A stretch of DNA of 64,000 bases from Catellatospora sp. TT07R-123 (GTDB lineage: Bacteria > Actinomycetota > Actinomycetes > Mycobacteriales > Micromonosporaceae): positions 4,340,001 through 4,404,000 of the forward strand of contig NZ_BNEM01000001.1 in NCBI RefSeq assembly GCF_018327705.1, given 5' to 3'. Below the pieces are notes generated by a model. The model was not told the DNA's origin. It made no database searches and saw nothing but the letters and a program-made list of their open reading frames with translations. Position 1 is the first letter of the stretch. The number at the start of each line of letters is the position of its first letter. Shown one piece after another: positions 16,843 through 58,494 of the stretch. The position numbers and the translations under genes are program-made.

Positions 16843-16902
16843 GCAGTTTCGGGGAAAGTGCTGGATTCGTCACCGGATTTCGAGCACTTTCCCCGAAACT
16901 GC
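16843..16902. repeat. GCAGTTTC palindromic repeat, copy A
   Basis: Arms GCAGTTTCGGGGAAAGTGCT (16843-16862) and AGCACTTTCCCCGAAACTGC (16883-16902) are a perfect 20-bp inverted repeat with a 20-nt loop. Each arm is itself close to a small hairpin (GCAGTTTC-GGG-GAAAGTGC). It lies at the convergent tilS/dacB junction. Related copies are at 26686-26757, 33944-34001, 37496-37569 and 58405-58494. Confidence 0.8.
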
Positions 16903-16973
16903 ACCCACCCAGCGCCACTCGGCACCCACCCTCGGGGGTACGCGGTGACCGACGCGCCGCCGGGCGCGCCCTT

Positions 16974-17048
16974 GATCAGCCGAGTTGCCGGGCAGTCGGG
17001 CGTATCTTGGGCCTTCTTTCGCCCGATTGCCCGGCAACTCGGCTGATC
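16974..17048. repeat. 29-bp inverted repeat at the tilS/dacB junction
   Basis: The arms 16974-17002 and 17020-17048 are complementary over 29 bp with a single G:T mismatch, and enclose a 17-nt loop with a T-run on the plus strand (CTTCTTT). The outer ends are GATCAGCCGAG and CTCGGCTGATC. It is long enough to form a cruciform and should terminate transcription in both directions. No second copy was seen in this window. Confidence 0.75.
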
Positions 17049-17084
17049 TTGAGTCGTCCCGGCCGTCTCGGCCCCGCCCGGCGG

Positions 17085-17107
17085 GACGGGGCGGGGCGGG
17101 GCGGGTG
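17085..17107 (+). other. G-tract cluster, potential G-quadruplex
   Basis: Several runs of three or four G separated by single C or AC fall in a GGGGC tandem array just past the dacB stop (which is on the other strand). The plus strand could fold as a G-quadruplex; in the dacB mRNA this would be a C-rich 3' end. Function unknown; it may be just GC-rich slippage. Confidence 0.35.
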
Positions 17108-17109
17108 GG

Positions 17110-19035
17110 TCAGCGGCAGCCGCAGGAGGCGATGGCGGCGACGATCTTGTCGAGGGCGTCCTGGGCGGGATAGCGGCCCGCGGTGACGCCGTCGGCGAGC
17201 ACCGCGAAGGCGAGCATCCGGCCGTCGGCGGTCTGGAGCACGCCGGACAGCGAGTTCACCCCGTCGAGGGTGCCGCTCTTGGCGCGGACCAGGCCGTACG
17301 CGTTCTTGACCTTGCCGAACCGGGGCAGCATGGTGCCGGACCAGCCCGCCACGGGCAGGCCGTTGAAGAAGTCGGCGAGCTGCGGGTGGTCCCCGCCGGC
17401 CGCCTTCACCAGCAGCGCCGTCAGCAGCTTCGGCGAGATCTTGTTGCGGCTGGACATGCCGGAGCCGTCGGACAGGTTGCTCTGCGCCGGGTCGAGGCCG
17501 AGTTCGGTCACGACCTCCTCGATCGCCGCCGACGCCCCCTCGAACGAGGCAGGCTTGCCCCGGGCCAGCGCCACCTGGTGGGCCAGCATCTCGGCCAGGG
17601 TGTTGTCGCTCTCGGTGAGCATCTGCTCGATCTGGCGCAGCAGCGGAGCGGACTGGACGGCGCCGAGTTCGAGGCCGGGCACGATCGCGACCGGGGCCGC
17701 CGAGGCGCCCGCGCTGGGCTGCGCGGCCGGGTCGGTGGCGGGCGCGGCGGGCGCGACGCCCTTGACCACGGCACTGGCGGGCAGGCCGAGCAGCTTGGCG
17801 AACGCCTCGCCGGCGGCCTTCTCCGGGTTGCTGTACCGGTTGAACGGCATCTCCCGGTCCTTGATGTCGGTGCGCGCCCCGTTGATCATCAGTGCGGTGA
17901 TCCGGGAGACGTTGCCCTCCTGCGGGGCGTCCGACGACCAGCCGGGGCCGGTGTTGGAGCCCGCGAACAGCGACCCGTCCGTGATCACCTTGGTGATCGG
18001 GGTGGCCCCCATCGCCTTCTTGACCTGGGCGGCGAGGGTGTCGAGCTGCGGCGCGCCCTCGTAGAACTTCTTGCTGTTCACGCCGAGGGTGGCGTCGCCC
18101 GCGCCGATCAGCACGACCTCGCCGGGGTTGGGCCCGGCCACCACGCGCGTGGTGATCCGGTAGGTCGGGCCCCGGGTGGCCAGGACCGCCGCCGCCGTCA
18201 CCAGCTTGGTGTTGGACGCCGGAGTGATCATCTCGGTCGGGTCCAGTTCGAACAGGACCTCGCCGGTGTGCAGGTCGACCACCGAGGCGCTCACGTGGCT
18301 GCCGAGCGCGGTGCCGGTCATCAGCGGGCCGAGCACGGCGCTCAGCCCGGCCGTGGTGGGCATCGGCGCGTCGGCTGCCGCCGCGGCGAGCACCGCCGCC
18401 GGGGGCGGCTCGGCGGGCGCGGTCGGCGCCGGGGACTGCCGATCGGGGGTGGAGAACAGGTCGGTGACCAGGTGCGGCTTGGCCACGCCGACGCCGACCA
18501 GGCCGAGGCCGAGCGCCGACACCAGCACCAGCGACGTGGTGATCAGACCGCGGCGCCCCTTGCCCTTCTTCTTTTTCTTCTTCAGGCGGCGGCTGTGCGG
18601 GGCGGTGGGCGCAGCAGACCGATCGGCGGGAGCGGGGGCACCGCTCTGACCGCCCTGGCTCCCCTGGGCGCCGTGGAGCCGCTGGGTGTCCTGGGCCGGG
18701 CCGTAGCCGCTCTGGCCGTAGCCGTCCTGGGGCGGCTGGGCGTAGCCGTACTGTCCGCGCTGGTCGTGGGCCTGTGGATAGGGGTTGGGCGGTGGGTTAC
18801 CCGGCCGCGCATTGTGCACATCCTGTGGATAACCGCCCGGCTGGGGGCCCGCCGCCTGTGGATAAGACGGTGGATAGCCGTGCATCCCCTGGTCCTGGGG
18901 TTGTGGATAACCTGGGGACGCCAGCCAGACGTACTCCCGGCCGTTCCACACCCACTCGCCGGGCACGCCCGGACCGCCCGGCGATCCGGCGCCACCCGCA
19001 GGGTCGGCACCGTAATGTGAACCTTGCCTCCCCAA
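17110..19035 (-). CDS. dacB: D-alanyl-D-alanine carboxypeptidase/endopeptidase, PBP4 (S13) family
   Basis: 641 aa. Trims or cleaves peptidoglycan peptides outside the membrane. Residues 1-150 form a long Pro/Gly/Gln-rich cytoplasmic tail, then a run of lysines (LKKKKKKGKGRRG) and one TM helix (about 164-186). The S13 domain has the SxxK nucleophile Ser274-Lys277 (PASNTKLVT), the SxN motif in SGMSSRNK, and the KTG-like KSG in RAKSGTLDG. The TTG start has AAGGAGG 6-7 nt upstream. The Pro-rich cytoplasmic tail is much longer than in E. coli DacB and may bind partners. Divergent from ppa, as in M. tuberculosis (Rv3627c/Rv3628). Confidence 0.94.
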   Translation of the reverse strand: MGRQGSHYGADPAGGAGSPGGPGVPGEWVWNGREYVWLASPGYPQPQDQGMHGYPPSYPQAAGPQPGGYPQDVHNARPGNPPPNPYPQAHDQRGQYGYAQPPQDGYGQSGYGPAQDTQRLHGAQGSQGGQSGAPAPADRSAAPTAPHSRRLKKKKKKGKGRRGLITTSLVLVSALGLGLVGVGVAKPHLVTDLFSTPDRQSPAPTAPAEPPPAAVLAAAAADAPMPTTAGLSAVLGPLMTGTALGSHVSASVVDLHTGEVLFELDPTEMITPASNTKLVTAAAVLATRGPTYRITTRVVAGPNPGEVVLIGAGDATLGVNSKKFYEGAPQLDTLAAQVKKAMGATPITKVITDGSLFAGSNTGPGWSSDAPQEGNVSRITALMINGARTDIKDREMPFNRYSNPEKAAGEAFAKLLGLPASAVVKGVAPAAPATDPAAQPSAGASAAPVAIVPGLELGAVQSAPLLRQIEQMLTESDNTLAEMLAHQVALARGKPASFEGASAAIEEVVTELGLDPAQSNLSDGSGMSSRNKISPKLLTALLVKAAGGDHPQLADFFNGLPVAGWSGTMLPRFGKVKNAYGLVRAKSGTLDGVNSLSGVLQTADGRMLAFAVLADGVTAGRYPAQDALDKIVAAIASCGCR

Positions 19036-19126
19036 CGGTGCCCTCCTTGGATGGCCGTACTCAGTCAGGCGAGACTAACTAAAAGTCGCCAACGTCGGCG
19101 AACTAACAGGCCATTGGGAGTGTGAA

Positions 19127-19630
19127 ATGGATTTCGACGTCACGGTTGAGATCCCTAAGGGGCAGCGCAACAAGTACGAGGTGGACCACGCGACCGGACG
19201 GATCCGGCTCGACCGCACCCTCTTCACCTCCACCCAGTACCCCGCTGACTACGGGTTCATCGAGAACACGCTGGGCGAGGACGGCGACCCGCTGGACGCA
19301 CTCGTGCTGGTCCAGGAGCCGACGTTCCCCGGCTGCCTGATCCGGTGCCGCGCGATCGGCATGTTCCGGATGCGGGACGAGAAGGGCGGCGACGACAAGG
19401 TGCTGTGCGTGCCGGCCGACGACCCGCGGCTGGAGCACCTGCGTGACATCCACCACGTCGCCGAGTTCGACCGGCTGGAGATCCAGCACTTCTTCGAGGT
19501 GTACAAGGACCTGGAGCCCGGCAAGAGCGTCGAGGGGGCGACCTGGGTCGGCCGCGCCGACGCCGAGGCCGAGATCAAGCGCTCGTTCCAGCGCGAGGTC
19601 GACCGCCTGGAGAGCGGCGCCGGTCACTGA
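19127..19630 (+). CDS. ppa: Inorganic pyrophosphatase (family I)
   Basis: 167 aa, complete. Hydrolyses pyrophosphate to phosphate in the cytosol, pulling biosynthetic reactions forward. Signatures: [24 protein letters not shown], the metal-binding [10 protein letters not shown] and [11 protein letters not shown]. The ATG has GGGAG about 8 nt upstream. Divergent from dacB; the gap contains AT-rich TAACTAAAAG and GAACTAACAG segments that may be promoter elements for either gene. Confidence 0.97.
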
Positions 19631-19660
19631 CCTGCGGTTCTTTTCGCCGACTGACGTGAT

Positions 19661-19692
19661 GATCGGCCGCCCGGGACACCGGGCGGCCGATC
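19661..19692. terminator. Hairpin terminator between ppa and eccC
   Basis: GATCGGCCGCCC (19661-19672) pairs perfectly with GGGCGGCCGATC (19681-19692), with an 8-nt loop. It lies at the convergent junction of ppa and eccC and should stop transcription from both sides. Confidence 0.75.
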
Positions 19693-19704
19693 GTCGTATA
19701 TGCG

Positions 19705-22700
19705 TCAGTACGCCGGCAGGTCCGCCAGCTGCACCAGCCGCGCCCCGCGCCGGGTGATCAGGCGGCCGCGGCCGGCCGTCATCCGCTCGTTGCGGAACGG
19801 GCTGCCGAACGGGGCCGTCACGTTCCGGTCGGCCGACATCTGGAGGTACGGCGCGTTCGTGGCGAGCACCCGCGACAGCGCCGCGTCGTACGCGGCGCGG
19901 CTCCAGTTCACGTTCGACGCGGTGATCAGGTGCAGGCCGACGTCGCGGGCCTCGAACAGGAACGGCTCCAGGTTGCGCAGCGGGTGCACGCCCGACGAGA
20001 CCACGATGTCGTAGTCGTCGATGATCAGGAAGAACTCGCCCCGGCCCGCCAGCCACGGGCGGCGCGGGATGTCCTGCGGGGTGACGTCGGCGGGCGGGCG
20101 CCGCTCGGCCATCTTCGCCGCGATCGCGTCCATGTAGTCGGGCACCTGGTCCAGGCTGGTGATGTAGGCCAGCTGGTGCGGCGTGGTCACCGCCCCGAGC
20201 AGGCTGCGGCGCGGGTCGACGATGAGCAGCTTCGCCTCGTCCGGGCTGTACCGGCGGGTGATCGTGGTGGCGAGCTGCCGCAGCAGCGTCGACTTGCCGC
20301 ACTCGCTCTCGCCGAACGCCGACAGGTGCACGTCGGCGAAGAAGTCGACCACGGCCGGGGTGAGGTCGTCGGCGATGCCGATCGGCATGGCCCAGGGGTC
20401 GCCGCCCTCGACCGGCATCCGGTCGTACGCGTAGACGTTGGGCAGGACGCGGACACGGGGTGCGGGGGCGCCGCTCCAGTGCTTGGCGATCTGCCGGACC
20501 AGTTCCTCCCGGTCGCCGACCTGGTCCACGTCCGGGCGCAGGGCCAGCGAGAACAGGCCGTCCGGGGTGCAGCCGAAGCCGGCGCGCTGCGGCACCTGCG
20601 GCGCCACCCGGCGGACCCGGCAGATGGTGTCGCTGGGGTCGCCCAGGCGCAGCTCCAGCTTGGTGCCGAACTGGTCGGCGATGGCCGGGCGGAAGTCGCG
20701 CCAGCGCAGCGTCGCCGCGACCACGTGCACGCCGTACGCCAGACCCCGGGTGGTGATGTCGGTGATCACCGGCTCCAGGTCGTCGTAGCTCTCCTTCAGC
20801 GTGGCCCAGCCGTCCACGACCAGGAACACGTCGCCGTACGGATCGTCGGGGAACCGGCCGGCCGCCCGCAGCCGCCGGTACGACGCCATCGAGTCGATGC
20901 CGTGCTCCAGGAACCGGGCCTCGCGGTTGTTCAGCAGCTCGGCGACCTCGCCGACGGTCCGGCGGACCAGCATCGCCTCCTGGCGGCCCGCGACGCCGCC
21001 GACGTGCGGCAGCTCGCGCAGGCCGGCCAGGGTGCCGCCGCCGAAGTCGAGGCAGTAGAACTGCACCTCCTGCGGGGTGTGGGTCAGCGCCAGGCCGGTG
21101 ACCAGGGTGCGCAGCAGGGTGGACTTGCCGCTCTGGTTGCCGCCCGCGACCGCCACGTGCCCGGCGGCGCCGTCGGCCAGCCGTACCCATTGCAGGTCGC
21201 GCAGCTGCTGGGCGGGCTTGTCCACGACCGCGAGCGGGACCCGCAGCGCGCCGCGCAGCTCCGGGTTGGCCACCGTCAGGCCGCGCCCCTCGACGAGGCC
21301 GACCTGCCCGAACGCGAGGTCGAGCGGGTCGGACAGGTCCAGCGGCGGCAGCCACACCTGGTGCGCGGGCGGGCCCTGGCCCACCATCCGCTCGATCATG
21401 ACGTCCATCAGGCTCTCGCCCGGCTTGACGTCCCACTTCACTTCCAGCTCGGTGCTCTTCGGGGTCTTCGGCACCGGCAGGTAGTGGTTGCTGAAGTCGT
21501 AGACGAACTGCTCGCCGTCGACCCGGCGGCGGGCCACGGCCTCGCCCGCCCGCTTGAACGAGCCCGAGACGTACGCCCCCTTGAACCGCTGCAACGGCTC
21601 CGAGCCGAACTTGAGGTAGCCGTGGCCGGGCGCCTTGGGCAGGTCGAACGCGTCGCCGACGCCGAGCACCGCGCGCGACTCCATCGCCGAGAAGGTCCGC
21701 AGACCGATCCGGTACGACAGGTGCGTGTCCAGGCCGCGCAGGCGGCCCTCCTCCAGGCGCTGGCTGGCCAGCAGCAGGTGCATGCCGATGGACCGGCCGA
21801 CCCGGCCGATCTGCACGAAGATCTCGATGAAGTCCGGGTTGGCGGTCAGCAGCTCGGAGAACTCGTCGCAGACGATGAACAGCGACGCCAGCGGCGCCAG
21901 TGCCGCCCCGCCGGTGCGGGCCTTCTCGTAGTCCTTCAGGTTGGCGAAGTTGCCCGCCGCCCGCAGCAGCTCCTGGCGGCGCAGCACCTCGCCGGTGATG
22001 GCGTCGCCCATGCGGTTGACCAGGTGGCTCTCGCCCTCCAGGTTCGTGATGACCGCGGAGGTGTGCGGCAGCCGGTCCAGCGACGCGAACGTGGCGCCGC
22101 CCTTGAAGTCGACCAGCACGAAGTTGAGCTGCTCCGAGGAGTGCGTGGCGGCCAGGCCCAGCACCAGGGTGCGCAGCAGCTCCGACTTGCCGGAGCCGGT
22201 GGCGCCGACGAGCAGGCCGTGCGGGCCCATGCCGTCCTGCGCCGACTCCTTGATGTCGAGTTCGATCGCCGAGCCGTCCGGGCCGACGCCGATCGGCACC
22301 CGCAGCTTGTTGCGGTCGGCCCGCGGCGACCAGCCGTACGCGGTCTCGAAGCGATCCGGGTCGGGGATGCCCAGCAGGTCGGCCAGGCCACGCTCGCCGG
22401 TCATCGCGGTGTTGGAGGCGACCGCGACCGCCGACAGGCGCAGCGGCGCCAGCCGCCGCGCGATCGCCTCCGCCTCGGCGACCCCGATCCGGTCGGCGAT
22501 GCCGACCTCCGCGACCGAGCTGGCGGTGGTGGTGTGCAGGCCGCGCTCGCGCCCGCGCGTCTCCAGCACCAGCATGCTGCGGTCGAGCAGGCGCGGCGGC
22601 TCGGTGTCCAGGTCGAAGACGGTCACCCCGGCCAGGCCCTCGGGCAGCACGAGCTGGTGGGAGTCGGCCAGATCGCCGCCGTCGAAGACCACCACCACGT

Positions 22701-23730
22701 GCGGCGCGGCGTCGGCCACGCCGAAGCGGGCCCGCCCGGCCAGCACGCCGGACAGCATCTCCTCCAGCTGGCCCGCGGAGGTGGCGAACAACCGCACCGG
22801 GCCGAGCGCGTCGCTCTCGGTGGGGTGCTGGTGGTGCGGCAGCCACTTGGCCCAGTCCCAGCTGTCGCGCCGGTGCGGCGAGGCGCAGACCGCGATGATC
22901 AGGTCGTCGGGGGCGTGGAACACGGCCAGCTGCGCCAGCATCGCGCGGGCCAGGCCGTGCGCGTCGGTGCCGTCGCGGTGGTCGGTCTGGGTCAACCCGG
23001 CCGCGCCGCCGAAGACCCCGCCCTGGTACGTGCCGTCGGCGCGCTGGTTGTCGGCCCGGGTGCCGCCCTCGCTGCGCAGGTACACCCGGCCGAAGCCGCG
23101 GATCGACAGCGCCACCGGCAGGTCCGGCACCACCGAGTACGCGTCCAGGAAGCGCCGCAGCGCCCCGGCCGTCATCGGCTCCAGTTCCTCCAGCGGCCGG
23201 GTCTCCGGCGGGATCAGCGGGGTGGCCAGCGACTGCGGGCCGACGCCCACGCGCACGATGCCGAAGTCGGGGTCGCTGCCGCGCCGCTCCCACAGCCGGT
23301 GGCTGTCCACGGTGGACCACAGCCGCTGCGGGTCGGGGTGGCGGTAGAACAGGCCGACGCGCTGCTGCTGCACCGCGTGCCGGGCCCGGCGGCGCAGCGC
23401 GGCGAGGTGGCGCAGGTATTCGCGGCGGGCCGACATCATCTCGGCCTTCTTCGGCTGGCCCGCGCCGCTCATCAGGCTCGCGGCGATCATGCCGAGGCTG
23501 GAGACGCCCATCATGCCGCCAGCCAGATAGGACATCTTGTTGCCCTGGCCGTTGCCGACCATCATCGCCATGCCCAGACCGCTGCCGAGCATCGGCAGGA
23601 TCATCATGGCCTGCTGCAGGCGACCGCCCGCCGCCTGCGGGATCTCCGGCGGTGCGTCGATGACCAGCTCTCCGGCGGGGATCTCGGGTGCGGGGCGGCG
23701 GGGCGCCCGCTTCACGATCACCGAACCCAT
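19705..23730 (-). CDS. eccC: Type VII secretion ATPase EccC (fused three-ATPase form)
   Basis: 1341 aa from the ATG at 23730, which has GGGGGAGGAG about 6 nt upstream. The motor of ESX secretion, anchored in the membrane. Two hydrophobic helices (about 40-60 and 68-88) are followed by three FtsK/SpoIIIE domains. D1 has Walker A GATGSGKS (509-516) and Walker B LFIVCDEF (617-624) with the catalytic Glu. D2 has GGNQSGKS (863-870) and FLVVDGW, lacking that Glu. D3 has GESECGKS (1140-1147) and FLIIDDYD. Degeneration of D2 and D3 is usual for EccC, where they act mainly in substrate binding. It is a single chain (not split EccCa/EccCb) and divergent from eccD. Confidence 0.95.
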   Translation of the reverse strand: MGSVIVKRAPRRPAPEIPAGELVIDAPPEIPQAAGGRLQQAMMILPMLGSGLGMAMMVGNGQGNKMSYLAGGMMGVSSLGMIAASLMSGAGQPKKAEMMSARREYLRHLAALRRRARHAVQQQRVGLFYRHPDPQRLWSTVDSHRLWERRGSDPDFGIVRVGVGPQSLATPLIPPETRPLEELEPMTAGALRRFLDAYSVVPDLPVALSIRGFGRVYLRSEGGTRADNQRADGTYQGGVFGGAAGLTQTDHRDGTDAHGLARAMLAQLAVFHAPDDLIIAVCASPHRRDSWDWAKWLPHHQHPTESDALGPVRLFATSAGQLEEMLSGVLAGRARFGVADAAPHVVVVFDGGDLADSHQLVLPEGLAGVTVFDLDTEPPRLLDRSMLVLETRGRERGLHTTTASSVAEVGIADRIGVAEAEAIARRLAPLRLSAVAVASNTAMTGERGLADLLGIPDPDRFETAYGWSPRADRNKLRVPIGVGPDGSAIELDIKESAQDGMGPHGLLVGATGSGKSELLRTLVLGLAATHSSEQLNFVLVDFKGGATFASLDRLPHTSAVITNLEGESHLVNRMGDAITGEVLRRQELLRAAGNFANLKDYEKARTGGAALAPLASLFIVCDEFSELLTANPDFIEIFVQIGRVGRSIGMHLLLASQRLEEGRLRGLDTHLSYRIGLRTFSAMESRAVLGVGDAFDLPKAPGHGYLKFGSEPLQRFKGAYVSGSFKRAGEAVARRRVDGEQFVYDFSNHYLPVPKTPKSTELEVKWDVKPGESLMDVMIERMVGQGPPAHQVWLPPLDLSDPLDLAFGQVGLVEGRGLTVANPELRGALRVPLAVVDKPAQQLRDLQWVRLADGAAGHVAVAGGNQSGKSTLLRTLVTGLALTHTPQEVQFYCLDFGGGTLAGLRELPHVGGVAGRQEAMLVRRTVGEVAELLNNREARFLEHGIDSMASYRRLRAAGRFPDDPYGDVFLVVDGWATLKESYDDLEPVITDITTRGLAYGVHVVAATLRWRDFRPAIADQFGTKLELRLGDPSDTICRVRRVAPQVPQRAGFGCTPDGLFSLALRPDVDQVGDREELVRQIAKHWSGAPAPRVRVLPNVYAYDRMPVEGGDPWAMPIGIADDLTPAVVDFFADVHLSAFGESECGKSTLLRQLATTITRRYSPDEAKLLIVDPRRSLLGAVTTPHQLAYITSLDQVPDYMDAIAAKMAERRPPADVTPQDIPRRPWLAGRGEFFLIIDDYDIVVSSGVHPLRNLEPFLFEARDVGLHLITASNVNWSRAAYDAALSRVLATNAPYLQMSADRNVTAPFGSPFRNERMTAGRGRLITRRGARLVQLADLPAY

Positions 23731-23877
23731 GGCGACTCCTCCCCCAGGCGCTGACGCACCACAGGTTAATCGCTGCCGCTCACTTCCGCTGCGCCGGTGT
23801 GGACAGCGACCGGCGGCGGTGTGGACAGCGACCGGTACGGGGTGACGCGTTGCGGCACAACGTGGTAGACGTACCGG
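23731..23877. promoter_or_regulatory. eccC/eccD divergent promoter region with a 19-bp direct repeat
   Basis: A perfect 19-bp direct repeat CGGTGTGGACAGCGACCGG occurs at 23795-23813 and 23817-23835. The period is 22 bp (about two helical turns), as expected for a regulator binding on one DNA face. A -10-like TAACCT for eccC (minus strand, 23763-23768) lies on one side, and TAGACG (23866-23871), 6 nt before the eccD GTG, on the other. The repeat lies between the two promoters and could control both. Confidence 0.5.
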
Positions 23878-26685: not shown

Positions 26686-26757
26686 GATCATGCAGTTTCG
26701 GGGAAACTGCCGCAAAGGCGGGCGTTATTCGTGCACTTTCCCCGAAACTGCATGATC
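26686..26757. repeat. GCAGTTTC palindromic repeat, copy B
   Basis: A perfect 21-bp inverted repeat: arm 26686-26706 (GATCATGCAGTTTCGGGGAA plus A) and arm 26737-26757. The left arm contains the complete 19-nt hairpin unit GCAGTTTC-GGG-GAAACTGC (26692-26710). It sits at the convergent mycP/marP junction. The rest of the gap to marP (about 90 bp) is G-rich with no other feature. Confidence 0.8.
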
Positions 26758-33936: not shown

Positions 33937-33943
33937 GTTCGTG

Positions 33944-34001
33944 CAGTTTCGGGGAAAGTGCAGGAATGCCGCCCATGATTCGCGCAGTTTCCCCGAAACT
34001 G
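33944..34001. repeat. GCAGTTTC palindromic repeat, copy C
   Basis: CAGTTTCGGGGAAA (33944-33957) pairs with TTTCCCCGAAACTG (33988-34001), 14 bp perfect, with partial pairing continuing inward. Located at the convergent junction between the chaplin-like gene and the carboxylase operon, next to terminator 34050-34099. Confidence 0.8.
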
Positions 34002-34049
34002 TCGCCTCACCTCCGCCCGTCGGGCGGCGGGGGCGGAGTGGGGGCGCGT

Positions 34050-34099
34050 AAGGAAGGGCACCTTCTACCTCGCATTGCGAGAAGGAGGTGCCCTTCCTT
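34050..34099. terminator. Bidirectional hairpin terminator, AAGGGCACCTTC family
   Basis: AAGGAAGGGCACCT (34050-34063) pairs perfectly with AGGTGCCCTTCCTT (34086-34099); a nested stem CTCGC-ATT-GCGAG is at 34069-34081, the same inner stem as in 9696-9742. It abuts the carboxylase stop codon. Confidence 0.75.
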
Positions 34100-37495: not shown

Positions 37496-37564
37496 TGCTG
37501 CAGCTTCCCCGAAACTGCAGCAATCGGGACGGTGATACCCGCAGTTTCCCCGAAACTGCGGGTA

Positions 37565-37569
<5 letters not shown>
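37496..37569. repeat. GCAGTTTC hairpin repeat, copy D (two tandem units)
   Basis: Unit 1 at 37496-37522: TGCTGCAG-C-TTC / GAA-A-CTGCAGCA, with loop CCC. Unit 2 at 37531-37569: GGTGATACCCGCAGTTTC pairs perfectly with GAAACTGCGGGTATCACC around a CCC loop, an 18-bp stem that overlaps the stop codon of the downstream-strand kinase gene. Both share the TTTC-CCC-GAAA core of the other copies, but here the units are in the same orientation, and each has its own extended flanking stem. Confidence 0.8.
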
Positions 37570-38497
<928 letters not shown>

Positions 38498-50465: not shown

Positions 50466-50479
50466 CCTCATGTATGCGC

Positions 50480-50932: not shown

Positions 50933-51019
50933 GACGACTCCCTGCCCCGCTCGCCGCCGCCGCCGGATGCGCGACAGGCAATGTGCTTCCTCATGGGCGA
51001 TGAAACTACCCTTAGGAGC

Positions 51020-51895
51020 ATGGGTCCGCTCGGGAAAATCGCCGTCGGCGCGGTCGTGGTGGGCGCGGGCGCGCTCGCGTACGGCACGCTGATCGAACGC
51101 AACATGTTCACCCTCCGCCGGTACGACGTGCCGCTGCTGGCCCCCGAGGCCGAGCCGCTGCGCGTGCTGCACCTGTCGGACCTGCACCTGACCCCCGGCC
51201 AGAAGCGCAAGCAGCGCTGGGTCAGCGAGCTGGCCGGCCTCGACCCGGACCTGGTCGTCGTCACCGGCGACAACATGGCCCACCCGGACGCCGTCCCCGG
51301 CGTGCTCGCCGCGTACGAGCCGCTGCTGGCGCTGCCCGGCGCGTTCGTCTTCGGGTCGAACGACTACACCGGCCCGGTCTGGAAGAGCCCCTTCAGCTAC
51401 TTCCGGGAGGACCGCGAATACCAGCACGGCGTCGAGCTGCCCACCGAGGAGCTGCGCGCCGCCTTCCTGGCCGCGGGCTGGACCGACCTCGACAACGCCC
51501 GCGCCACGATCAAGGCGGGTGGGCGCGTGGTCGACCTCGCGGGCGTGGACGACCCCCACATCGGCCTCGACGCGTACCCGGCCGGGCCCGCCGACCCGGC
51601 CGCAGCGGTGCGGATCGCGCTCAGCCACGCCCCGGAGCCCCGGGTGCTGGACGCGTTCGCCGCCGACGGGTTCGACCTGCTGCTGTCCGGGCACACCCAC
51701 GGCGGGCAGGTGCGCGTGCCCGGGTTCGGGGCGCTGGTCACCAACTGCGGGCTGGAGCGCAAGCTCGCCCGGGGACTGCACCGCTGGGACGGGGCCTGGC
51801 TGCACGTGTCGGCCGGGCTGGGCACGCATCCGACCGCGCCGGTGCGCTTCGCCTGCCGCCCGGAGGCGACGCTGCTGACGCTCATCCCGCGCTGA
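51020..51895 (+). CDS. Calcineurin-like metallophosphoesterase (Rv3683 family)
   Basis: 291 aa. One N-terminal hydrophobic helix (about 5-24) then the phosphoesterase core: LHLSDLHLTPGQ, VVVTGDNMAHPDAV, FGSNDYTGP (the GNHD motif as GSND), ALSHAPEP and SGHTHGGQVRVP. Such proteins hydrolyse phosphodiesters or phospho-lipid/nucleotide substrates; YaeI-like members act on UDP-linked lipids. The ATG at 51020 has TACCCT 7 nt upstream (leaderless). Adjacent to ponA2 as in mycobacteria, with yqeY interposed. Confidence 0.9.
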   Translation: MGPLGKIAVGAVVVGAGALAYGTLIERNMFTLRRYDVPLLAPEAEPLRVLHLSDLHLTPGQKRKQRWVSELAGLDPDLVVVTGDNMAHPDAVPGVLAAYEPLLALPGAFVFGSNDYTGPVWKSPFSYFREDREYQHGVELPTEELRAAFLAAGWTDLDNARATIKAGGRVVDLAGVDDPHIGLDAYPAGPADPAAAVRIALSHAPEPRVLDAFAADGFDLLLSGHTHGGQVRVPGFGALVTNCGLERKLARGLHRWDGAWLHVSAGLGTHPTAPVRFACRPEATLLTLIPR

Positions 51896-51909
51896 GGGGG
51901 ATACCGGTT

Positions 51910-51938
51910 TTGGCGGAGCCGGGGCGGTGGGCTAGTAT
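51910..51938 (+). promoter_or_regulatory. Housekeeping promoter of tRNA-Pro
   Basis: TTGGCG at 51910-51915 and TAGTAT at 51933-51938 with a 17-bp spacer; the tRNA begins 16 nt after the -10. This is the best sigma-A-type promoter in the window. Confidence 0.75.
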
Positions 51939-51953
51939 TTCGGAGCACCGCTT

Positions 51954-52027
<74 letters not shown>

Positions 52028-52101
52028 CAGAAGAAGTGCCAGTAGGGCCGGTCCTCCCTCACGGGAGACCGGCCCTACTGCTTTACCTGGGCTTTCGTGT
52101 G

Positions 52102-52905
52102 TCACAAGCCGATGGCTGCGGCTGCGAGCCCGTACCGCCGGGCTTCGTCCCGCAGGTCGACCCCATCGGCTCCGGCAGCGACCCGCTCGTTCGTCGTGGC
52201 CATCCGAAACAGCAGCGCGCGAGCGACCGCCGCCACCGGTACATCCACGGTCTTCCACAGCGTCGCCGGAGCACCGTGCCAGCAGAGCGCGTCGGCCACC
52301 ACGACACCCTCGGCGTACTGGGGCGGCCGCCAGTAGGGCGAGATGTCGATGACCGCCGGAGCGAGCCCGGGAGCGAACAAGACGTTCTTCGTCAGGTCCC
52401 CGTGCACGAGCTGAGGACGCCCCAGCGGCTCCAGTGCGCCCCGCAGCCGTCGCGCCACGGCGGCGAACTCCGGGCGGAACTGGATCTCCTGCTCACCCCA
52501 CACCGCCCTGTCCGCCCGCGCCCACCAGTCCTGCCGCGCTTCCAGGAAGTCCGGGCGGCCGAGATGAGCTACCGCCCGGTGGAATGCGCGGCCGGCGGCA
52601 AGGATGTCCCGCCACGTCGAGACCGCGGAGTAGTCCGGTTCGCTGCCCTCGACCCACCGGGTGGCCGACCACCCGTGGGAGACCCAGGCACCGTCACGCG
52701 TACAGACCGGCTCGGCGATACGGAAGCCGTCAGGCGTCACCTCCGCGAGCGCACCGGCCAGCCATTCCTGCAGCGGACCGCCGTCCGGCTTGAATACCAG
52801 GTCGTCTGCCGCCCACGAGTCGCCTTGCCCACCGTCCAGTCGTCGGGCCGGCCCTTCGACGCCGAACGCGTGCAGGACGGTCGAGGGGAGCTGATCGCGA
52901 GACAC
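52102..52905 (-). CDS. Aminoglycoside-phosphotransferase-like kinase
   Basis: 267 aa. The APH/choline-kinase fold shows the catalytic loop HGDLTKNV (168-175; Asp170) and a metal-binding VIDISPYWRPP replacing the usual IDWE/DFD. There is GGQGDSWAADDLVFKPDG near the N-terminus (nucleotide-binding loop and Lys). GTG start with TATCGT 6 nt upstream (leaderless). Could phosphorylate an antibiotic or a housekeeping metabolite; no specificity can be read. Located just past tRNA-Pro. Confidence 0.85.
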   Translation of the reverse strand: MSRDQLPSTVLHAFGVEGPARRLDGGQGDSWAADDLVFKPDGGPLQEWLAGALAEVTPDGFRIAEPVCTRDGAWVSHGWSATRWVEGSEPDYSAVSTWRDILAAGRAFHRAVAHLGRPDFLEARQDWWARADRAVWGEQEIQFRPEFAAVARRLRGALEPLGRPQLVHGDLTKNVLFAPGLAPAVIDISPYWRPPQYAEGVVVADALCWHGAPATLWKTVDVPVAAVARALLFRMATTNERVAAGADGVDLRDEARRYGLAAAAIGL

Positions 52906-53094
52906 CGGTGCACGATAGTCCAGCAGAGAACCGGCGCTGAGGCATTTTCCGCATGTACGGGGAAAGCCTCCGGCTGTGGTTTGTCCCTTGGCGCCGGAGT
53001 CGGCACCAGAATGCCAGCGTTCGGGACAGACGCCGAGGTCACAGGCCCCCTACATTCGGCAGGCTCTGTGCCCCCCGCATTTTCGGAGACCTCT

Positions 53095-53460
53095 GTGAAC
53101 ATCGATTTCTCCCTCGAACCATTGTTCTCGACGTACGTCGTGCTGCTACTGCTCAGTGGGGTGATCCTGCTGGCGCTGACCGCGCCGGAGTCGTCCAAGG
53201 GCGCTCGGATCGCCAACCTGCTGTTCGGCATCGGCTTCCTCGCCTACGGCCTGTACCTCGCCTTCGTCTTCGACGGCGGGTCGTACCTCATCCTGTTCAA
53301 GGCCTTCATCGTGCCGGTGGCGCTGATCTTCCACACCGTCAAGACGATCATCGCCAAGCGCAACGAGAAGGCGGCCGCGGCCGCTGCGGTCGCGTACAAC
53401 CCGGTAGTTCCGGCGGCTCCGGCTCCGTTGGTGAACCCGGCCATGGAAGAAAGCCGCTGA
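53095..53460 (+). CDS. Small multi-pass membrane protein, unknown function
   Basis: 121 aa from the GTG at 53095, which has GGAG 7 nt upstream (an in-frame GTG at 53068 is less likely). Three hydrophobic helices (about 10-30, 42-58, 64-83) followed by a short Ala/Pro-rich cytoplasmic tail. No family recognised. Confidence 0.75.
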   Translation: MNIDFSLEPLFSTYVVLLLLSGVILLALTAPESSKGARIANLLFGIGFLAYGLYLAFVFDGGSYLILFKAFIVPVALIFHTVKTIIAKRNEKAAAAAAVAYNPVVPAAPAPLVNPAMEESR

Positions 53461-53819
53461 ACGGCGGAAGCATGCCTCGGGGCCACCCTGCCGGGTGGCC
53501 CCGCCTCATTTCTGCCAACATGGCGCAACGCGACCCGGCTCAGGCTCGCCATCCGACGCCTGTGACCGGGGTCACCAATTTCGCCGCAACCTGATGCGTC
53601 CCCCGACGTGTAGAGGGCGACAGCGGCAGGGACGGCTGGTCTGGCCTGACATCCGCCCGCGCTTTGCAAGGACGGCCTGCCACGGCCGTCGGGTTGACCG
53701 GCGACGGGAACTCCGACTGCGGTGGCGAGCCGGATCTGGCGTAACGGGGGGGCGCGGGGACGAGAGTCTCCGCGCCTGCCGTAGCGCCATACTCGACCAC
53801 CTTCGTCCCGGGAGATCAG
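53461..53819 (+). promoter_or_regulatory. Noncoding gap with terminator and sigma-factor promoter region
   Basis: 359 bp. GGGGCCACCC (53479-53488) pairs perfectly with GGGTGGCCCC (53493-53502) around a TGCC loop: terminator of the small membrane gene. Farther on, GGGAAC at 53706-53711 resembles the -35 of ECF-dependent promoters and could be an autoregulatory site, but no matching -10 was clear. GGGAG lies 5 nt before the GTG of the sigma gene. No other gene is evident. Confidence 0.45.
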
Positions 53820-54980
53820 GTGCAGGGCCAGCGTGACTTCGCCGAGTTCTACTCCGCGGCGTTCGGCCCGCTGACATCCCAATTGCACGCCTTCGTCGGC
53901 AGCCACGCCGAGGCACAGGACCTCGTGCAGGAGGCGTTCTGCCGAGCGTTCGGCAAGTGGTCGACAGTCTCCCGCTACGAGGACCCCCATTCCTGGGTAC
54001 GGCGGGTCGCCTGGAACCTCGCGGTCAGCCGCTGGCGGCGTACCCGCCTGGTCCGGCTGTGGCAGCGCGACCTGGCACCGGCGGACGTGCCCGAACCCAC
54101 CGGCAGCGACATCGACCTGGCCCGCGCCCTGGCGGAGCTGCCGCAGGACCAGCGCCAGGCGATCGTGCTGCACTACTTCGCGGACATGGCCGTCGCGGAC
54201 GTCGCCGCCTTCATGGAGGCACCGGAGGGCACGGTGAAGGCCTGGCTCCACCGAGGCCGCAGCACGCTCGCCGCCGCCCTCGGCGCAGACGGCGCGGACG
54301 CACGCGCCGCCTCGCAGGCGCGGACCCGGCCACCGGGAGTCGCCGCGGTCCGTACCACCGTCACCCGGCGCTACGCCACGCGCGCGGCGGCCCTGCTGCT
54401 GGGCGCCCTGGCGCTGGCCCTGGGCGCGCTCGTCCCGGTCAGCACGGGGTCGGCACCCACCAATCCCTCGCCCAGCCCGCACCCGTCACCGTCAGCCTCC
54501 GCCAGCGCCGAGCCGAGCACTGCGCCGCCTGCGACCTCGCCGAGCCCTACCCCCCGGCCCAGCACCCCGGTCTGCCCTTACGACGCGAAGGCGGCGCTGC
54601 TGCTGCTGGTAAGCCCGGCTTCGGACACCTTCGCGAAGTCGTCCCAGCTCCAGAAAGCCTGCCCGGCGATGAAGATCAAAATCACCCGGGCCGTGTATGT
54701 CGGCGCCAACGCGACCGTGGCCAAACTCACCCGCCACGCCACCGTGTCAGCGACGGTGACCTCCACCTCGGGCGTCCACGTGGGCGCGCCCGGCCGTCCC
54801 GCAGGTGACTGCTACGCCCGCTTGGAGGTGACTGTCGCCGGGTCGGGTTCGCTGCCGTCGTCCATGCCCAACCCGATCCCTGAGCTCGTGAGCTCCGGCA
54901 GCCAGTTCAGGTTCGAGGAATACCTGGCAGCACGAGGGCTGCGCCCGCTGGAAACGTCCTGGGTAGACCCAGTGTGCTAG
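53820..54980 (+). CDS. ECF sigma factor fused to a membrane helix and a Cys-rich outer domain
   Basis: 386 aa. Sigma region 2 (DFAEFYSAAFGPLTSQLHAF ... AQDLVQEAFCRAFGKW ... WVRRVAWNLAVSRWRR) and region 4 (LPQDQRQAIVLHYFADMAV ... EGTVKAWLHRGRSTLAA) fill residues 1-152. After a basic linker comes one TM helix (about 188-206), a 40-residue Ser/Pro-rich spacer, and an outer domain of about 135 residues with Cys252, Cys281, Cys331 and Cys386. The protein thus carries sensor, anchor and sigma factor in one chain, without a separate anti-sigma gene beside it. Release would probably need proteolysis. GTG start. Convergent with the next gene, 4 bp apart. Confidence 0.88.
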   Translation: MQGQRDFAEFYSAAFGPLTSQLHAFVGSHAEAQDLVQEAFCRAFGKWSTVSRYEDPHSWVRRVAWNLAVSRWRRTRLVRLWQRDLAPADVPEPTGSDIDLARALAELPQDQRQAIVLHYFADMAVADVAAFMEAPEGTVKAWLHRGRSTLAAALGADGADARAASQARTRPPGVAAVRTTVTRRYATRAAALLLGALALALGALVPVSTGSAPTNPSPSPHPSPSASASAEPSTAPPATSPSPTPRPSTPVCPYDAKAALLLLVSPASDTFAKSSQLQKACPAMKIKITRAVYVGANATVAKLTRHATVSATVTSTSGVHVGAPGRPAGDCYARLEVTVAGSGSLPSSMPNPIPELVSSGSQFRFEEYLAARGLRPLETSWVDPVC

Positions 54981-54984
54981 CCGG

Positions 54985-55875
54985 TCACGAAAGCAGCCGC
55001 CTGGTTCGTGCCGCCTTCACGGCGACGAATCCGGCGAGAAGGGTCATGACGGCGGCCCCTCCGGCCAGCCACGGACCGCCAGGCTGCCCCTTCGACGCGT
55101 CCGCAGCGGCCGGACTGGGATCGGGCATGCGGGTCGGGGAGGCGCCGGTCGACGCCTGCGCTGCCGACGGCGAAGCGGAGGGCCCGCCGACGGGCGAGGC
55201 GGATGTCTGGGTGCTCATCGTGTTCTGCTGCTGAGACGAGTCGTAGTGGTATCTCTGGTGACCGCTCACGAACGGGGTGCAGCTCGCACCGAATTCGGGG
55301 GTCATGGTGTAGGAACCAACCGGAGATCCCCGGTGAAACGTCATCCGGAAACGAAATGAGTGGCGGACGTGCGGCGCCAGCACCATGTGCAGCGGCATCT
55401 CGTCGGTGGTCCAAAACGACAGCCCCTGGCTCGGCTCAACGTAGAACCACCTCAGCGGGACCGCATGCCATGCTCCTCCGTCAACGCTCCAGGACACGCT
55501 CGGCTTGACCGGCGACGTGGGGCCCAGAGTCGGGGGATAGACGTCAGTCGACGGCGTCACCTGGAAGAAGATCCAGCCATCGGTCAAGATGGCACCACTG
55601 TCGTTGGTCAGCGCGGCGACTTCGACGATCGGCTGCTCGGGAAGTTTGGCAGTCGGGACCGCGCCGCCGCCCCCGAACTGGGTCAGCGTCAGGTTCCCAG
55701 GGCACTGTGCCGGGGTGGGCGACGCCGACGGAGTCGGCTTCGTGGCATCGCTGCTCGGCGAGGTTGACGGTGAGGGCTCGGTCGCCAGCGCGGGGGTCGC
55801 GCCGAGGGCGGCCCAGGCCGCGAAAGCTGCGGTCGCGACACCGAGGTACGTGGATCTCCGGGCGGCGCGGGGCAC
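54985..55875 (-). CDS. Secreted, C-terminally anchored Ser/Thr/Pro-rich protein
   Basis: 296 aa from a GTG at 55875, chosen because GGAGG is 5 nt upstream; the longer frame has an implausible N-terminus. Signal peptide to about 33 (ALATEPS). A Ser/Pro linker leads to a beta-rich domain (LTLTQFGGGGAVPTAKLPEQ ... EFGASCTPF) with two Cys. A second Ser/Ala/Thr-rich linker and a C-terminal TM helix with a basic end (ARTRRLLS) anchor it. The folded part resembles immunoglobulin-like surface domains, but no family can be named. It faces the sigma-sensor gene tail-to-tail and could be its ligand or regulon member (inference). Confidence 0.8.
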   Translation of the reverse strand: MPRAARRSTYLGVATAAFAAWAALGATPALATEPSPSTSPSSDATKPTPSASPTPAQCPGNLTLTQFGGGGAVPTAKLPEQPIVEVAALTNDSGAILTDGWIFFQVTPSTDVYPPTLGPTSPVKPSVSWSVDGGAWHAVPLRWFYVEPSQGLSFWTTDEMPLHMVLAPHVRHSFRFRMTFHRGSPVGSYTMTPEFGASCTPFVSGHQRYHYDSSQQQNTMSTQTSASPVGGPSASPSAAQASTGASPTRMPDPSPAAADASKGQPGGPWLAGGAAVMTLLAGFVAVKAARTRRLLS

Positions 55876-56010
55876 TGTTACCTCCGGAACGTCAGGTTGC
55901 GGGCAGGCAGAGGTTAACCATGGCTGCCAACAGATACCGACCCGGTGGCCGCCGCGGAACGTCGTCGCTTCTCGACACAGCCGGCAGAGCACCGGCTTCC
56001 GCGCCTGCCG

Positions 56011-56598
56011 TCAGCTGGGGTCGGCCCACAGATAGCGCCCGACCTGCGCCGGTCGGCGGTAGTACATCCGCAGCCGCTCCGACAGCAGCAGGTGCCGCCC
56101 GTCCCCACCCTGCTGGTGCGCGCCCGCGAGGACCGCGTCCGCCAGCGCGTCCAGCTGCTGCGGGGTCAGGTCGACGCGGCCGCCGGTGCCCATGCGGAGC
56201 TCCACCGTCCGGCCCGTCGCGACGTCCCGCGCGACGAGATAGATGGACGGCCCACCCCTGGTGTCGTGGACCTGGCCCTGGACAGTCGAGGCAGCCAGGT
56301 CCACCGTGCGCGTGCTGAACGCGCCGCGCACGGTCAGGGCCGAGCCCGCCAGCCAGGCCGCATCGCGCAACGTCGAGAGCAGGCCGCACCAGGCGAAGAA
56401 GTTCATCGCCAGCACGAGCGCGACCACGCAGGCCGTCCCCGCCACGCTGATCTGCGGCGAGGTGGCGATATCGTGCGCCACCTCCCAGAGGACCCTCACG
56501 GCGACCGCCGCCATGAACAGCCAGAAGGTCGAGAAGGCCAGGCGCTGCTTCCACGTCGAGTCGCGAAGGACCACTCGCGGGGAACCGGGGGGTGTCAC
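56011..56598 (-). CDS. Two-helix membrane protein, PH-like or similar cytoplasmic domain
   Basis: 195 aa from a GTG at 56598, chosen because TACATT lies 6 nt upstream (leaderless). Two hydrophobic helices (about 17-40 and 52-75) precede a beta-rich C-terminal domain (GSALTVRGAFSTRTVDL ... VARDVATGRTVELRM ... LTPQQLDALADAVL), which resembles membrane-associated PH-like domains of actinobacteria. Not confidently assigned. Function unknown. Confidence 0.75.
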   Translation of the reverse strand: MTPPGSPRVVLRDSTWKQRLAFSTFWLFMAAVAVRVLWEVAHDIATSPQISVAGTACVVALVLAMNFFAWCGLLSTLRDAAWLAGSALTVRGAFSTRTVDLAASTVQGQVHDTRGGPSIYLVARDVATGRTVELRMGTGGRVDLTPQQLDALADAVLAGAHQQGGDGRHLLLSERLRMYYRRPAQVGRYLWADPS

Positions 56599-56858
56599 GG
56601 CGCCAATGTAAGCATCGGTGCCAAGCCGGCCTGCCACCGAGCATGCGGGGAGGTCAGCGCGGAGTGCCGAAGCTCACCTTCCCAATATCCGGGAGATGGG
56701 CAGCGGTTCCACCCCTACCGGCCTGATCTGCTGGTCCCTTGGCTGACAACGGGATCACCGTTCGGCGCCGGAAGCCGTCTACGAGGCGTTCTCAGAAACC
56801 CCGATTTCTCGCGCACGGTGAGTAAGCTTGGCGGCCGTAAGCCCCTTACCCCGGAATA
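56599..56858. promoter_or_regulatory. Divergent promoter gap before the GGDEF gene
   Basis: 260 bp. TAAGCT at 56823-56828 is a possible -10 for the diguanylate cyclase gene. Nothing else was recognised. Confidence 0.3.
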
Positions 56859-58367
56859 GTGGATCAAGCGGAACCCCACCTCGTGCCCCTTAACCGCATC
56901 ATCGACGATGTCGCCGCGGCATTGCGTGCCTCACGCAGTGCGGTCGACGCGTGCGGTGCCACCGTGACGGTCCTCAGCCGCCACACCCCGGCACTGATCG
57001 AGGCGCTGCTGCACGTCAAGGACCAGCTCCGCTGCGTCTCCGCCAGCGGCGCCTGGCAGGTGTTCTCGGCGGTGCCCCTGGGCCGGGGCGTGGTCGGCCG
57101 GGTGTACGCCAGCGGCCAGGCCGTCACCATCCTCGACGTCGCCAACGATCCCGACTACATCCGGCTCGGGCCCCCCATCACCGCCGAGATCTGCGCCCCC
57201 ATCATCGACCGCACCGGCCACCCCGTCGGCGTCCTCAACGCCGAGTGGGCCGAGGGCCAGGCGCTGGACGGCTGGGAAGAGATCATCGTGCAGGCCGGAC
57301 GCCTGCTCGGCGCCCGGCTCAGCGAGCTCGGCGGCCCGCCGCCGGAGACCCGCAGCGAGCAGCTGCTGCGGCACTCGCTGGCCCTGACCAGCGCCGAGAC
57401 CGACGCCGAGGTGCTGATGCGGGCCTGCCGCGCGGCGCGCGAGGTCACCGGGCTGGCCGCGGCCGTGCTGCTGCGGCCCGCTCCCGACCTGCTGCCCGAG
57501 CTGGGCCTGCCGGTTCCCGAGCCGGGCGAGCCCGAGCAGCCGGGCAACGTCGTGATCGCGGCCAGCTCTCCCGAGCCCCGGGACCGGCCGCTGGTGGCCC
57601 GGCTGGCGCAGATCGACCCGGAGCGGCTGTCCGCACTGCTGGACGAGGCCTGCCGGTACGGGGCGTCGTACACGCTCGGCGATCCGGCGGTGCTGGACGC
57701 GCGCGGGTTCGAGGCGCTGACCGGGGCGGGGGTCCGCACGATGATCGCCGTGCCGCTGGGGACGAACACTCCGTCGGTGACCTCGTCGACCGGCGCGCTG
57801 GTGGTGCTGGACGAGACCGCGATCATGCCCGACAGCGCCATGGTGAACCTGCTGGAACTGCTGGCGGCGCAGGCCACGAGCTGCCTGGAGAAGCTGAGCA
57901 CGCTGCGGCGGCTGCACCACCAGGCCAACTCCGACCCGCTGACCGGGCTGCGGCACGGCGGCCCGTTCGGGGCTCGGCTGGCCACGGCGACACCGGGGCA
58001 GACGGCGCTGCTCGCGATCGACATCGACGAGTTCAAGACGGTCAACGACACGCTCGGCCACGCCGCGGGAGACCGGGTGCTGGTGCAGATGGCGACGGCG
58101 CTGCAACAGGCGCTGCGGCTCGGCGACGAGCTGTTCCGGGTCGGCGGCGACGAGTTCGTCGCGGTCATCGACGTGCCCAGCGCCGCCGAGGCGATGCGGA
58201 TCTCCGAGCGGCTGCTCTCGGCGGCGCGGGCGACCGGCCGCACCATCAGCGTCGGCGTGGCGGTCCAGCGCGAGCAGGAGAGCCCCGAAGCGGCCCTGTA
58301 TCGCGCGGACCAGGCCCTCTACAAGGTCAAACGAGCCGGCCGCAACAACGCCCTCCTCGCCGACTGA
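56859..58367 (+). CDS. GAF-GGDEF diguanylate cyclase
   Basis: 502 aa. Two GAF-like sensor domains (about 15-160 and 175-330; the first contains GVVGRVYASGQAVTILDVAN) and a C-terminal GGDEF domain with an intact GGDEF motif at 429-433. An RxxD inhibitory site (RLGD, 420-423) lies five residues before it, so product inhibition by c-di-GMP is likely. Makes c-di-GMP, which in actinomycetes controls development through BldD-type regulators. No TM helix: a cytosolic sensor. No EAL domain is present. The GTG start has no clear ribosome-binding site. Confidence 0.93.
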   Translation: MDQAEPHLVPLNRIIDDVAAALRASRSAVDACGATVTVLSRHTPALIEALLHVKDQLRCVSASGAWQVFSAVPLGRGVVGRVYASGQAVTILDVANDPDYIRLGPPITAEICAPIIDRTGHPVGVLNAEWAEGQALDGWEEIIVQAGRLLGARLSELGGPPPETRSEQLLRHSLALTSAETDAEVLMRACRAAREVTGLAAAVLLRPAPDLLPELGLPVPEPGEPEQPGNVVIAASSPEPRDRPLVARLAQIDPERLSALLDEACRYGASYTLGDPAVLDARGFEALTGAGVRTMIAVPLGTNTPSVTSSTGALVVLDETAIMPDSAMVNLLELLAAQATSCLEKLSTLRRLHHQANSDPLTGLRHGGPFGARLATATPGQTALLAIDIDEFKTVNDTLGHAAGDRVLVQMATALQQALRLGDELFRVGGDEFVAVIDVPSAAEAMRISERLLSAARATGRTISVGVAVQREQESPEAALYRADQALYKVKRAGRNNALLAD

Positions 58368-58404
58368 CCGCACTCCCGACTGCGTTCCAGCGCCACAGCG
58401 TTCC

Positions 58405-58494
58405 AGCAGTTTCGGGGAAAGTGCTGGAATCTCGGGCCCCATTCCGGCAGTTTCCCCGAAACTGCACGCATCCCTTCCCCGAAACTGCACGCAT
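58405..58494. repeat. GCAGTTTC hairpin repeat, copy E (three units)
   Basis: Unit 1, ending about 58429: TTCCAGCA-G-TTTC / GAAA-G-TGCTGGAA. Unit 2: GCAGTTTC-CCC-GAAACTGC, 58447-58465. Unit 3 is a partial copy (58475-58494) made by a 23-bp tandem duplication of the right part of unit 2 (TTCCCCGAAACTGCACGCAT). Located at the convergent junction of the GGDEF gene and asd. Confidence 0.8.

Follow-up and report, generated by a model that had tools for sequence, protein, structure and literature searches.

A paired palindrome found behind genes of Catellatospora, and its sister palindromes, also flank predicted nuclease genes of one AbiEi/DUF559-type family

What is the short hairpin repeat that stands at the ends of genes in five gaps of one stretch of Catellatospora DNA, and what keeps it there? 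The stretch (hereafter the window) comprises 64,000 nt of Catellatospora sp. TT07R-123 (GCF_018327705.1, NZ_BNEM01000001.1, 4,340,001 to 4,404,000), whose genome we refer to as the own genome; ten other genomes of the genus carry the labels G001-G010. A sequence-only reading of the window had described a 19-nt self-complementary unit and proposed a functional or mobile palindromic element. We find that this unit is part of a 60-bp element, T1, of fixed architecture, which is dispersed behind genes and turns over between species while retaining its arms, and that T1 and several sister palindromes are paired with particular lineages of one nuclease gene family. We consider it probable that T1 is a non-autonomous repeat resembling the REPINs (doublets of repetitive extragenic palindromic, REP, sequences), with an AbiEi/DUF559-type nuclease as the partner that recognises, cuts and copies it.

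Allowing at most one mismatch, GTTTCSSSGAAAC matches ten times in the window, against 0.03 expected, which establishes the five-gap repeat as real. The ten matches form five pairs, each with a spacing of 41 bp (16846/16887, 26695/26736, 33946/33987, 37503/37544 and 58409/58450), so that all five copies, A to E, share one two-unit layout and the repeating unit is 60 bp; the 19-nt unit recurs as described but is not the true unit. T1 consists of two 13-bp palindromes, mostly inverted; its outer arms are conserved, and its middle varies in sequence but not in length (consensus GCAGTTTCGGGGAAAsTGC, 22 variable bases, GCAsTTTCCCCGAAACTGC). The copies in the window are as follows.

16843..16902: T1 element A, at a convergent junction between tilS (plus strand, ends 16825) and a peptidase S13 gene (minus strand, ends 17110)
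26686..26757: T1 element B, at a convergent junction between a subtilase gene (plus strand) and a gene whose product has trypsin-like and colicin V production domains (minus strand)
33943..34002: T1 element C, at a convergent junction between a chaplin-domain gene (plus strand) and a biotin carboxylase gene (minus strand)
37496..37569: T1 element D, a variant, at a tandem junction with minus-strand genes on either side
58406..58465: T1 element E, at a convergent junction between a GGDEF gene (plus strand) and a semialdehyde dehydrogenase gene (minus strand)
58475..58495: an extra 21-nt right-arm copy of E, duplicating 58452-58472 with a shift of 23

All ten flanking genes have Pfam matches, and the earlier placement of four copies at convergent junctions, with D over a kinase stop codon, is borne out: the extended stem of D (37531-37569) runs over the stop codon of the Ser/Thr kinase gene at 37565-38497 on the minus strand. 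Element A forms a single hairpin with a 20-bp outer stem (folding z -9.2), and the outer stem of B is lengthened to GATCATGCA/TGCATGATC. D and E had been credited with two or three units, each with its own stem. Separate stems do occur in D, where both units are in the CCC orientation and the left one carries one mismatch (GCTTC); the unit number is that of A to C, with the 21-nt piece added in E. At the D junction of G005 and G009, T1 has the standard layout. An Rfam scan of the window returned one tRNA and no other match. Beside C and E we also noted repeated terminator-like hairpins (AAGGGCACC.. / ..GGTGCCCTT; 34050-34099 and 58530-58579).

Across the own genome (9.17 Mb, two contigs), there are 138 full T1 with exact arms. 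Composition and location were analysed in a 1.264-Mb sample, consisting of the window and 60 further stretches, 12 of them picked for holding elements, with genes called by codon usage. This sample contains 23 exact units, where 19 permuted palindromes average 0.1, and 50 units with one mismatch, against 2.9; at two mismatches there is no excess over the permuted palindromes (54 versus 61). The 41-bp spacing is found in 39 of the 45 unit pairs lying within 300 bp. A relaxed scan recovered 41 T1 elements, 27 of which match the consensus at each of the 24 arm positions, and none with the reversed pattern; the core measures 54 bp in 39 of them, with 52-56 bp allowed. None of the 41 lies within a called gene (14 convergent, 24 tandem, 2 divergent and 1 at a stretch end), while 9 of 103 looser half-unit matches do, and 17 of the 24 in tandem gaps are closer to the stop than to the next start. 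In the unselected stretches, without the window, the 20 placed T1 are distributed over 6 convergent, 12 tandem and 2 divergent gaps, where the gaps of at least 60 bp number 64, 244 and 126, respectively. T1 copies lie downstream of genes and seldom occur in divergent gaps. The repeat is thus neither explained by composition nor equally frequent in coding regions, and its description as an extragenic, high-copy element of short palindromes at gene 3' ends, similar to REPs and bacterial interspersed mosaic elements (BIMEs), holds.

Is pairing what keeps the sequence constant? We collected 188 T1 elements by exact or near-exact arms, a procedure that makes the invariance of the arms partly a selection effect. 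C or G stands at positions 13 and 18, and the middle varies freely. The mirror columns 13/42 pair in 56% of elements against 50% expected, and 18/37 in 34% against 50%, i.e. without covariation, while columns 0/55 covary and columns 19-21/34-36 pair about 10 points above expectation; outward extension of the stem exceeds that of shuffled flanks (runs of at least 5 in 12 versus 2.8). The compensatory stems reported earlier are therefore present at outer positions and missing at the variable inner ones, and we rejected an RNA hairpin with a compensatory stem as the sole constraint, since 13/42 and 18/37 do not covary. The consensus ends in TGCA on both outer sides, with neither a GTAG nor a CGTC tag. 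The middles differ among nearly all copies. Nine pairs of middles have 3 differences, against 0.8 in shuffles that leave orientation asymmetry outside the model; recent copying was rejected as an explanation of these near-identical middles, because of this asymmetry and because the members of the best pair are embedded in near-identical DNA, which we take to be the ends of rRNA operons. Two own-genome regions (L007:1497-2400 and L175:10499-11400), presumably each the 5S end of an rRNA operon, are almost identical as far as the outer edge of a T1 element and unrelated past it.

T1 is present in all 11 genomes of the genus examined, with 6 to 155 exact-arm copies in each of the ten others and an approximately 25-fold range of copy number between species. 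It was found with exact arms in 0 of 50 genomes of other genera and gave no match in viral contigs. A scan of named genomes returned at least 120 T1 stretches; among the 80 matches listed, 78 are from Catellatospora, one from Verrucosispora sediminis and one from Micromonospora rubida. At locus A, T1 is missing in eight of the ten other species; G009 has T1, G005 only the sister palindrome T2, and the own genome both. In a syntenic region of ~88.5% identity, 12 own T1 copies lie at mapped junctions. Of the 10 junctions mappable to G005, 6 have a recognisable T1 there as well and a seventh has one that looks decayed; in G009, all 4 of the 4 mappable junctions have T1. The DNA adjoining T1 at these shared junctions looks unalignable by eye. 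Two further junctions of this region have T1 in G005 alone or in G009 alone. Between G002 and G008, which are 97-98% identical at two genes, 19 of 33 G002 elements have a partner with 0-6 differences among 48, one partner being used twice in this comparison of the elements themselves. The elements shared at orthologous junctions, together with the differences between species, indicate that T1 is both long retained and gained or lost, and both halves of the earlier phrase "functional or mobile" find support in this retention beside diverged flanks and in this variation.

Is T1 alone of its kind? Junction A holds a second element, which the sequence-only reading had passed over.

16974..17048: T2 element, core GTTGCC..GGCAAC at 16984-17038 (55 bp), same junction as A, folding z -10.5

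Intergenic k-mers expose T2 (TTGCCsGGCAA units) and a further palindrome, T3 (ATAGACGTTGGCCTAT). T2 has 14-145 copies in each of the 11 genomes of the genus, and T1 and T2 replace each other at two junctions. T3 (ATAGACGTTGGCCTAT..ATAGGCCAACGTCTAT) gives 36 half-unit matches at up to 28 places of the 1.264 Mb, including stretches L164, L172, L174, L191, L200 and L207; its inner stems look compensatory by eye and A/T runs stand on the outside, as in a terminator working in both directions.

What, then, accompanies T1? The loci examined contain eight T1 pairs less than 3 kb apart; at three of these, each at a different locus, the enclosed gene belongs to one and the same family. Its protein of ~300 aa combines an AbiEi-like N-terminal part with a DUF559/MTES_1575/VSR-like nuclease part. 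PADLOC AbiEi models match all three proteins (E 4e-9, 3e-11 and 7e-11); Pfam AbiEi_1 is listed for two of the three, below its own cut-off in both, DUF559 (E 2e-4 to 4e-3) is above the Pfam cut-off in one, and NCBIfam offers no useful name. The only solved structure listed for the nuclease profile, PDB 3r3p ("mobile intron protein"), matches over the catalytic core with E 0.71 and is a lead only; we take it to be a VSR-like homing endonuclease. A structure prediction from two sequences reached a pLDDT of 38.6. Each of the 11 Catellatospora genomes has homologs, as do 103 of 121 genomes across the Micromonosporaceae. Clades of the genus are labelled cI to cV. Of the proteins read, those of cI, cII and the T4 type (T4 being a further palindrome, see below) have the catalytic motif region E-x-D-G .. 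H .. D-x-x-R; it is lost in cIII/cIV, whose protein is perhaps a binding-only regulator. The cIII/cIV lineage is nevertheless found in all 11 genomes (cIV: L320-L322, L324, L325, L328-L330; cIII: L323, L326, L327). The gene between T1 copies, cI, is single-copy and always has the same neighbouring genes, which by eye, with no family search, do not resemble an AbiEii toxin; two of the eight cI genes are incomplete.

All eight genomes carrying cI have T1 on both sides of it. In the three without cI (G001, G006 and G007), the same neighbours were found with T1 between them in none, G007 having another gene there. Using a similarity score of at least 24 between the two flanks, matching palindromes were found on both sides of cI in 8 of 8 cases, cII in 8 of 9, cV in 2 of 2, cIII in 0 of 3 and cIV in 0 of 8 (18 of 30 in all). 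Further paralogs of the genus matched on both sides in 8 of 20 cases, with lineage-specific sequences (two of the eight placed by reading), and homologs of other genera in 6 of 22, where two had a flank too short to pass and one coding artefact was discarded. Summed over these sets, matching palindromes stand at both flanks of 32 of the 72 homologs. Among control genes of the own genome, 13 of 698 reached the score; on reading, 11 of these were coding similarity and two were real palindromes, one of which flanks the cII nuclease itself, leaving 1 of 697. T1 is also found upstream of cIII in 3 of 3 cases.

The palindromes are moreover specific to nuclease lineages. Placed on the protein tree, the labels T1, T2, T4 and T5, carried by 22 of 30 rows, require 3 changes, the minimum, with cIII scored as T1 for its upstream copy. 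At the cII locus, between the same outer genes, a T4-type nuclease with T4 flanks is found in two genomes and a T2-type nuclease with T2 flanks in seven, one of them under the score. Like T1 and T2, further palindromes seen at nuclease flanks recur elsewhere. T4 has 110 forward matches in G001, 68 in G007, 48 in G003, 19 in G006, 8 in G010, 6 in G004 and none in five genomes. T5, T6 and T7 stand next to homologs of the nuclease within the genus (T7 on the upstream side alone) and have 10, 5 and 3 half-unit matches, respectively, in the own sample, with 0 for reversed controls; 3 of the 10 T5 matches lie within called genes. A palindrome known only from a nuclease flank in another genus gave strand matches in two of the 121 genomes searched, both belonging to that genus: 17 in one, of which 4 are the nuclease flanks themselves, and 39 in the other. 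Among the lineages covered by the search, six palindrome families predicted from flanks were also found dispersed.

We propose the following scheme. T1 would insert in the gaps behind genes, where insertion is tolerated, and persist by vertical descent plus occasional new insertion. The AbiEi-like part of cI would recognise its own palindrome, possibly one monomer per ~23-bp inverted half, as AbiEi does; the nuclease part would cut at or near the palindrome, and repair or strand transfer would then copy the element to new sites. The AbiEi profile matches, and the size of the AbiEi operators, close to that of T1 (PMC7319586), are in keeping with this scheme. Many nuclease lineages carry a palindrome of their own at either flank, and these palindromes recur as families dispersed genome-wide. 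The association of nuclease and palindrome is observed; from it we infer binding, cutting and mobilisation. The data suggest that T1 and its sisters are an undescribed kind of small selfish DNA system. On balance, and with less assurance than for T1 itself, we lean towards a broader view in which the Micromonosporaceae would harbour a second, independently evolved REPIN-like world, where each AbiEi/PD-(D/E)XK nuclease keeps and spreads private paired palindromes, inheritance, exchange and loss affect the enzyme jointly with its palindrome, and DNA mobility is driven by a restriction-like nuclease with no transposase.

A number of observations weigh against this proposal. The flank figures were obtained by scoring nuclease loci with the better of two gene boundaries and controls with one; with one boundary they are 15 of 30 for cI to cV and 4 of 22 for other genera, and 40 of the 72 homologs lack matching palindromes on both sides. 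In favour of the proposal, copy number is higher in genomes with the intact cognate nuclease (T1 p=0.026, T2 p=0.026, T4 p=0.018), with p-values that overstate the significance because the classes were set after the counts were seen and the genomes are related. Against it, G007 lacks cI yet keeps 41 exact T1 copies, no T4-type nuclease was found in G003 despite its 48 T4 matches, T5 is dispersed in the own genome although none of that genome's five homologs was seen with T5 flanks, and T3, a large family here, has no partner gene found. A comparison made to detect decay of the arms after loss of the nuclease gave mismatches of 2.0 in G006 (no cI) versus 0.96 in the own genome (p=0.002), 2.75 in G005 (cI) and 0.33 in G007 (no cI), the latter from places drawn from the best BLAST matches. 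No clean empty site with target duplication was found, the near flanks being too diverged to align by eye even at ~88% identity.

T1 might instead consist of bidirectional terminators or mRNA 3'-end hairpins kept for that role, which the nuclease genes merely use. The position behind genes, the very stable RNA hairpins and the interchange of T1 and T2 all fit such a role, yet the arms are conserved in sequence beyond pairing, inner mirror positions do not covary, no T run was seen by eye after the stem in the printed T1 copies, a canonical terminator-like hairpin is also present at some junctions, and such a role leaves unexplained why one gene family has private palindromes at both flanks; we regard this role as an unlikely explanation. 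Alternatively, T1 could be the regulatory or defence sites of the AbiEi-like protein, autoregulatory when upstream and serving as decoys, landmarks or self-marks when dispersed, with no mobilisation. The AbiEi operator layout, in which the protein binds a pair of 23-bp inverted repeats separated by 3 or 13 bp (PMC7319586, drawn on in part), the AbiEi profile matches, the retention of the binding part in cIII/cIV after loss of the nuclease motif, and the T1 upstream of cIII speak for regulation. However, T1 lies downstream as well as upstream of nuclease genes, dispersed copies are rare in divergent promoter gaps, and copy number varies ~25-fold between species, so that we hold this possibility, too, to be improbable.

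Two classical kinds of mobile repeat were also considered. A REP/BIME moved by a REP-associated tyrosine transposase (RAYT, a Y1 HUH transposase) would account for the anatomy of an inverted pair with conserved ends and a fixed-length spacer (PMC3116915, in part). Y1_Tnp (PF01797) is, however, found in 6 of 11 genus genomes (9 matches, their T1 flanks unchecked) and in none of the three richest in T1 (G000, G005 and G009), and the T1 consensus lacks the GTAG or CGTC tag of REPs (PMC3733652, in part), which makes this origin scarcely credible; the RAYT-type transposase suggested by the sequence-only reading is replaced, as the flanked gene, by an AbiEi/DUF559-type nuclease. A miniature inverted-repeat transposable element (MITE) left by an insertion sequence would agree with a 60-bp inverted-repeat element and its turnover between species, but no transposase with T1 ends was found in the stretches read, middles differ among nearly all copies, and the one transposase seen between two T1 halves has itself inserted at the centre of that element; a MITE is very unlikely. 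This last case arose from a search for a parent transposon, which we rejected after the one pair of half-elements 1.2 kb apart that we followed proved to be a transposase gene with an integrase core (rve) inside T1. The gene, presumably of an IS30-like transposase, splits T1 at L172:7545-8785 (own C1 about 2362545-2363785). At L169:900-2100, an open reading frame (938-1996, minus strand) that reads like the same kind of transposase lies between two T3 halves; from these insertions in T1 and T3 middles, such transposases may target palindrome centres.

A nuclease partner remains our preferred explanation of T1. To our knowledge, REPINs with their RAYTs are the well-described and sole case of palindromic repeats kept by a dedicated single-copy enzyme. 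Among the titles and abstracts of the matches listed in the open PMC literature, with subscription journals and preprints outside this range, none joins DUF559/AbiEi nucleases to dispersed palindromes. If our proposal is true, the upkeep of palindromic repeats by a dedicated enzyme evolved more than once, here with an unrelated nuclease; it would suggest a role for the DUF559/AbiEi-type proteins of the Micromonosporaceae, and the matched nuclease-palindrome pairs given here make the recognition rules directly testable.

How does T1 compare with known systems? RAYT genes are always flanked by two inverted REPs (PMC2817692), and REP doublets have conserved ends with a spacer between (PMC3116915), according to the parts of these papers used here. 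Like them, T1 is an extragenic inverted palindrome pair, present many times per genome, whose ends are conserved and whose spacer, less conserved in sequence, keeps a fixed length; it likewise has a single-copy enzyme gene between its own palindromes, and enzyme lineages have palindromes of their own. Unlike REPIN/RAYT systems, it is associated with an AbiEi plus PD-(D/E)XK (DUF559/VSR-like) protein and not with a Y1 HUH transposase, lacks the GTAG/CGTC tag and covariation at the variable inner stem positions tested, and is hosted by Actinobacteria. With the AbiEi antitoxins, as far as they are covered by the portion of PMC7319586 used, the family shares the profile-matching N-terminal part, and their paired 23-bp operators are about the size of T1; it differs in the fused nuclease part, in sites dispersed behind genes and not at its own promoter only, and in cI neighbours that, by eye, do not read as AbiEii toxin. 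With PDB 3r3p, the shared feature is the catalytic core, at the level of a lead, whereas here there is no intron and the dispersed unit is a 60-bp palindrome.

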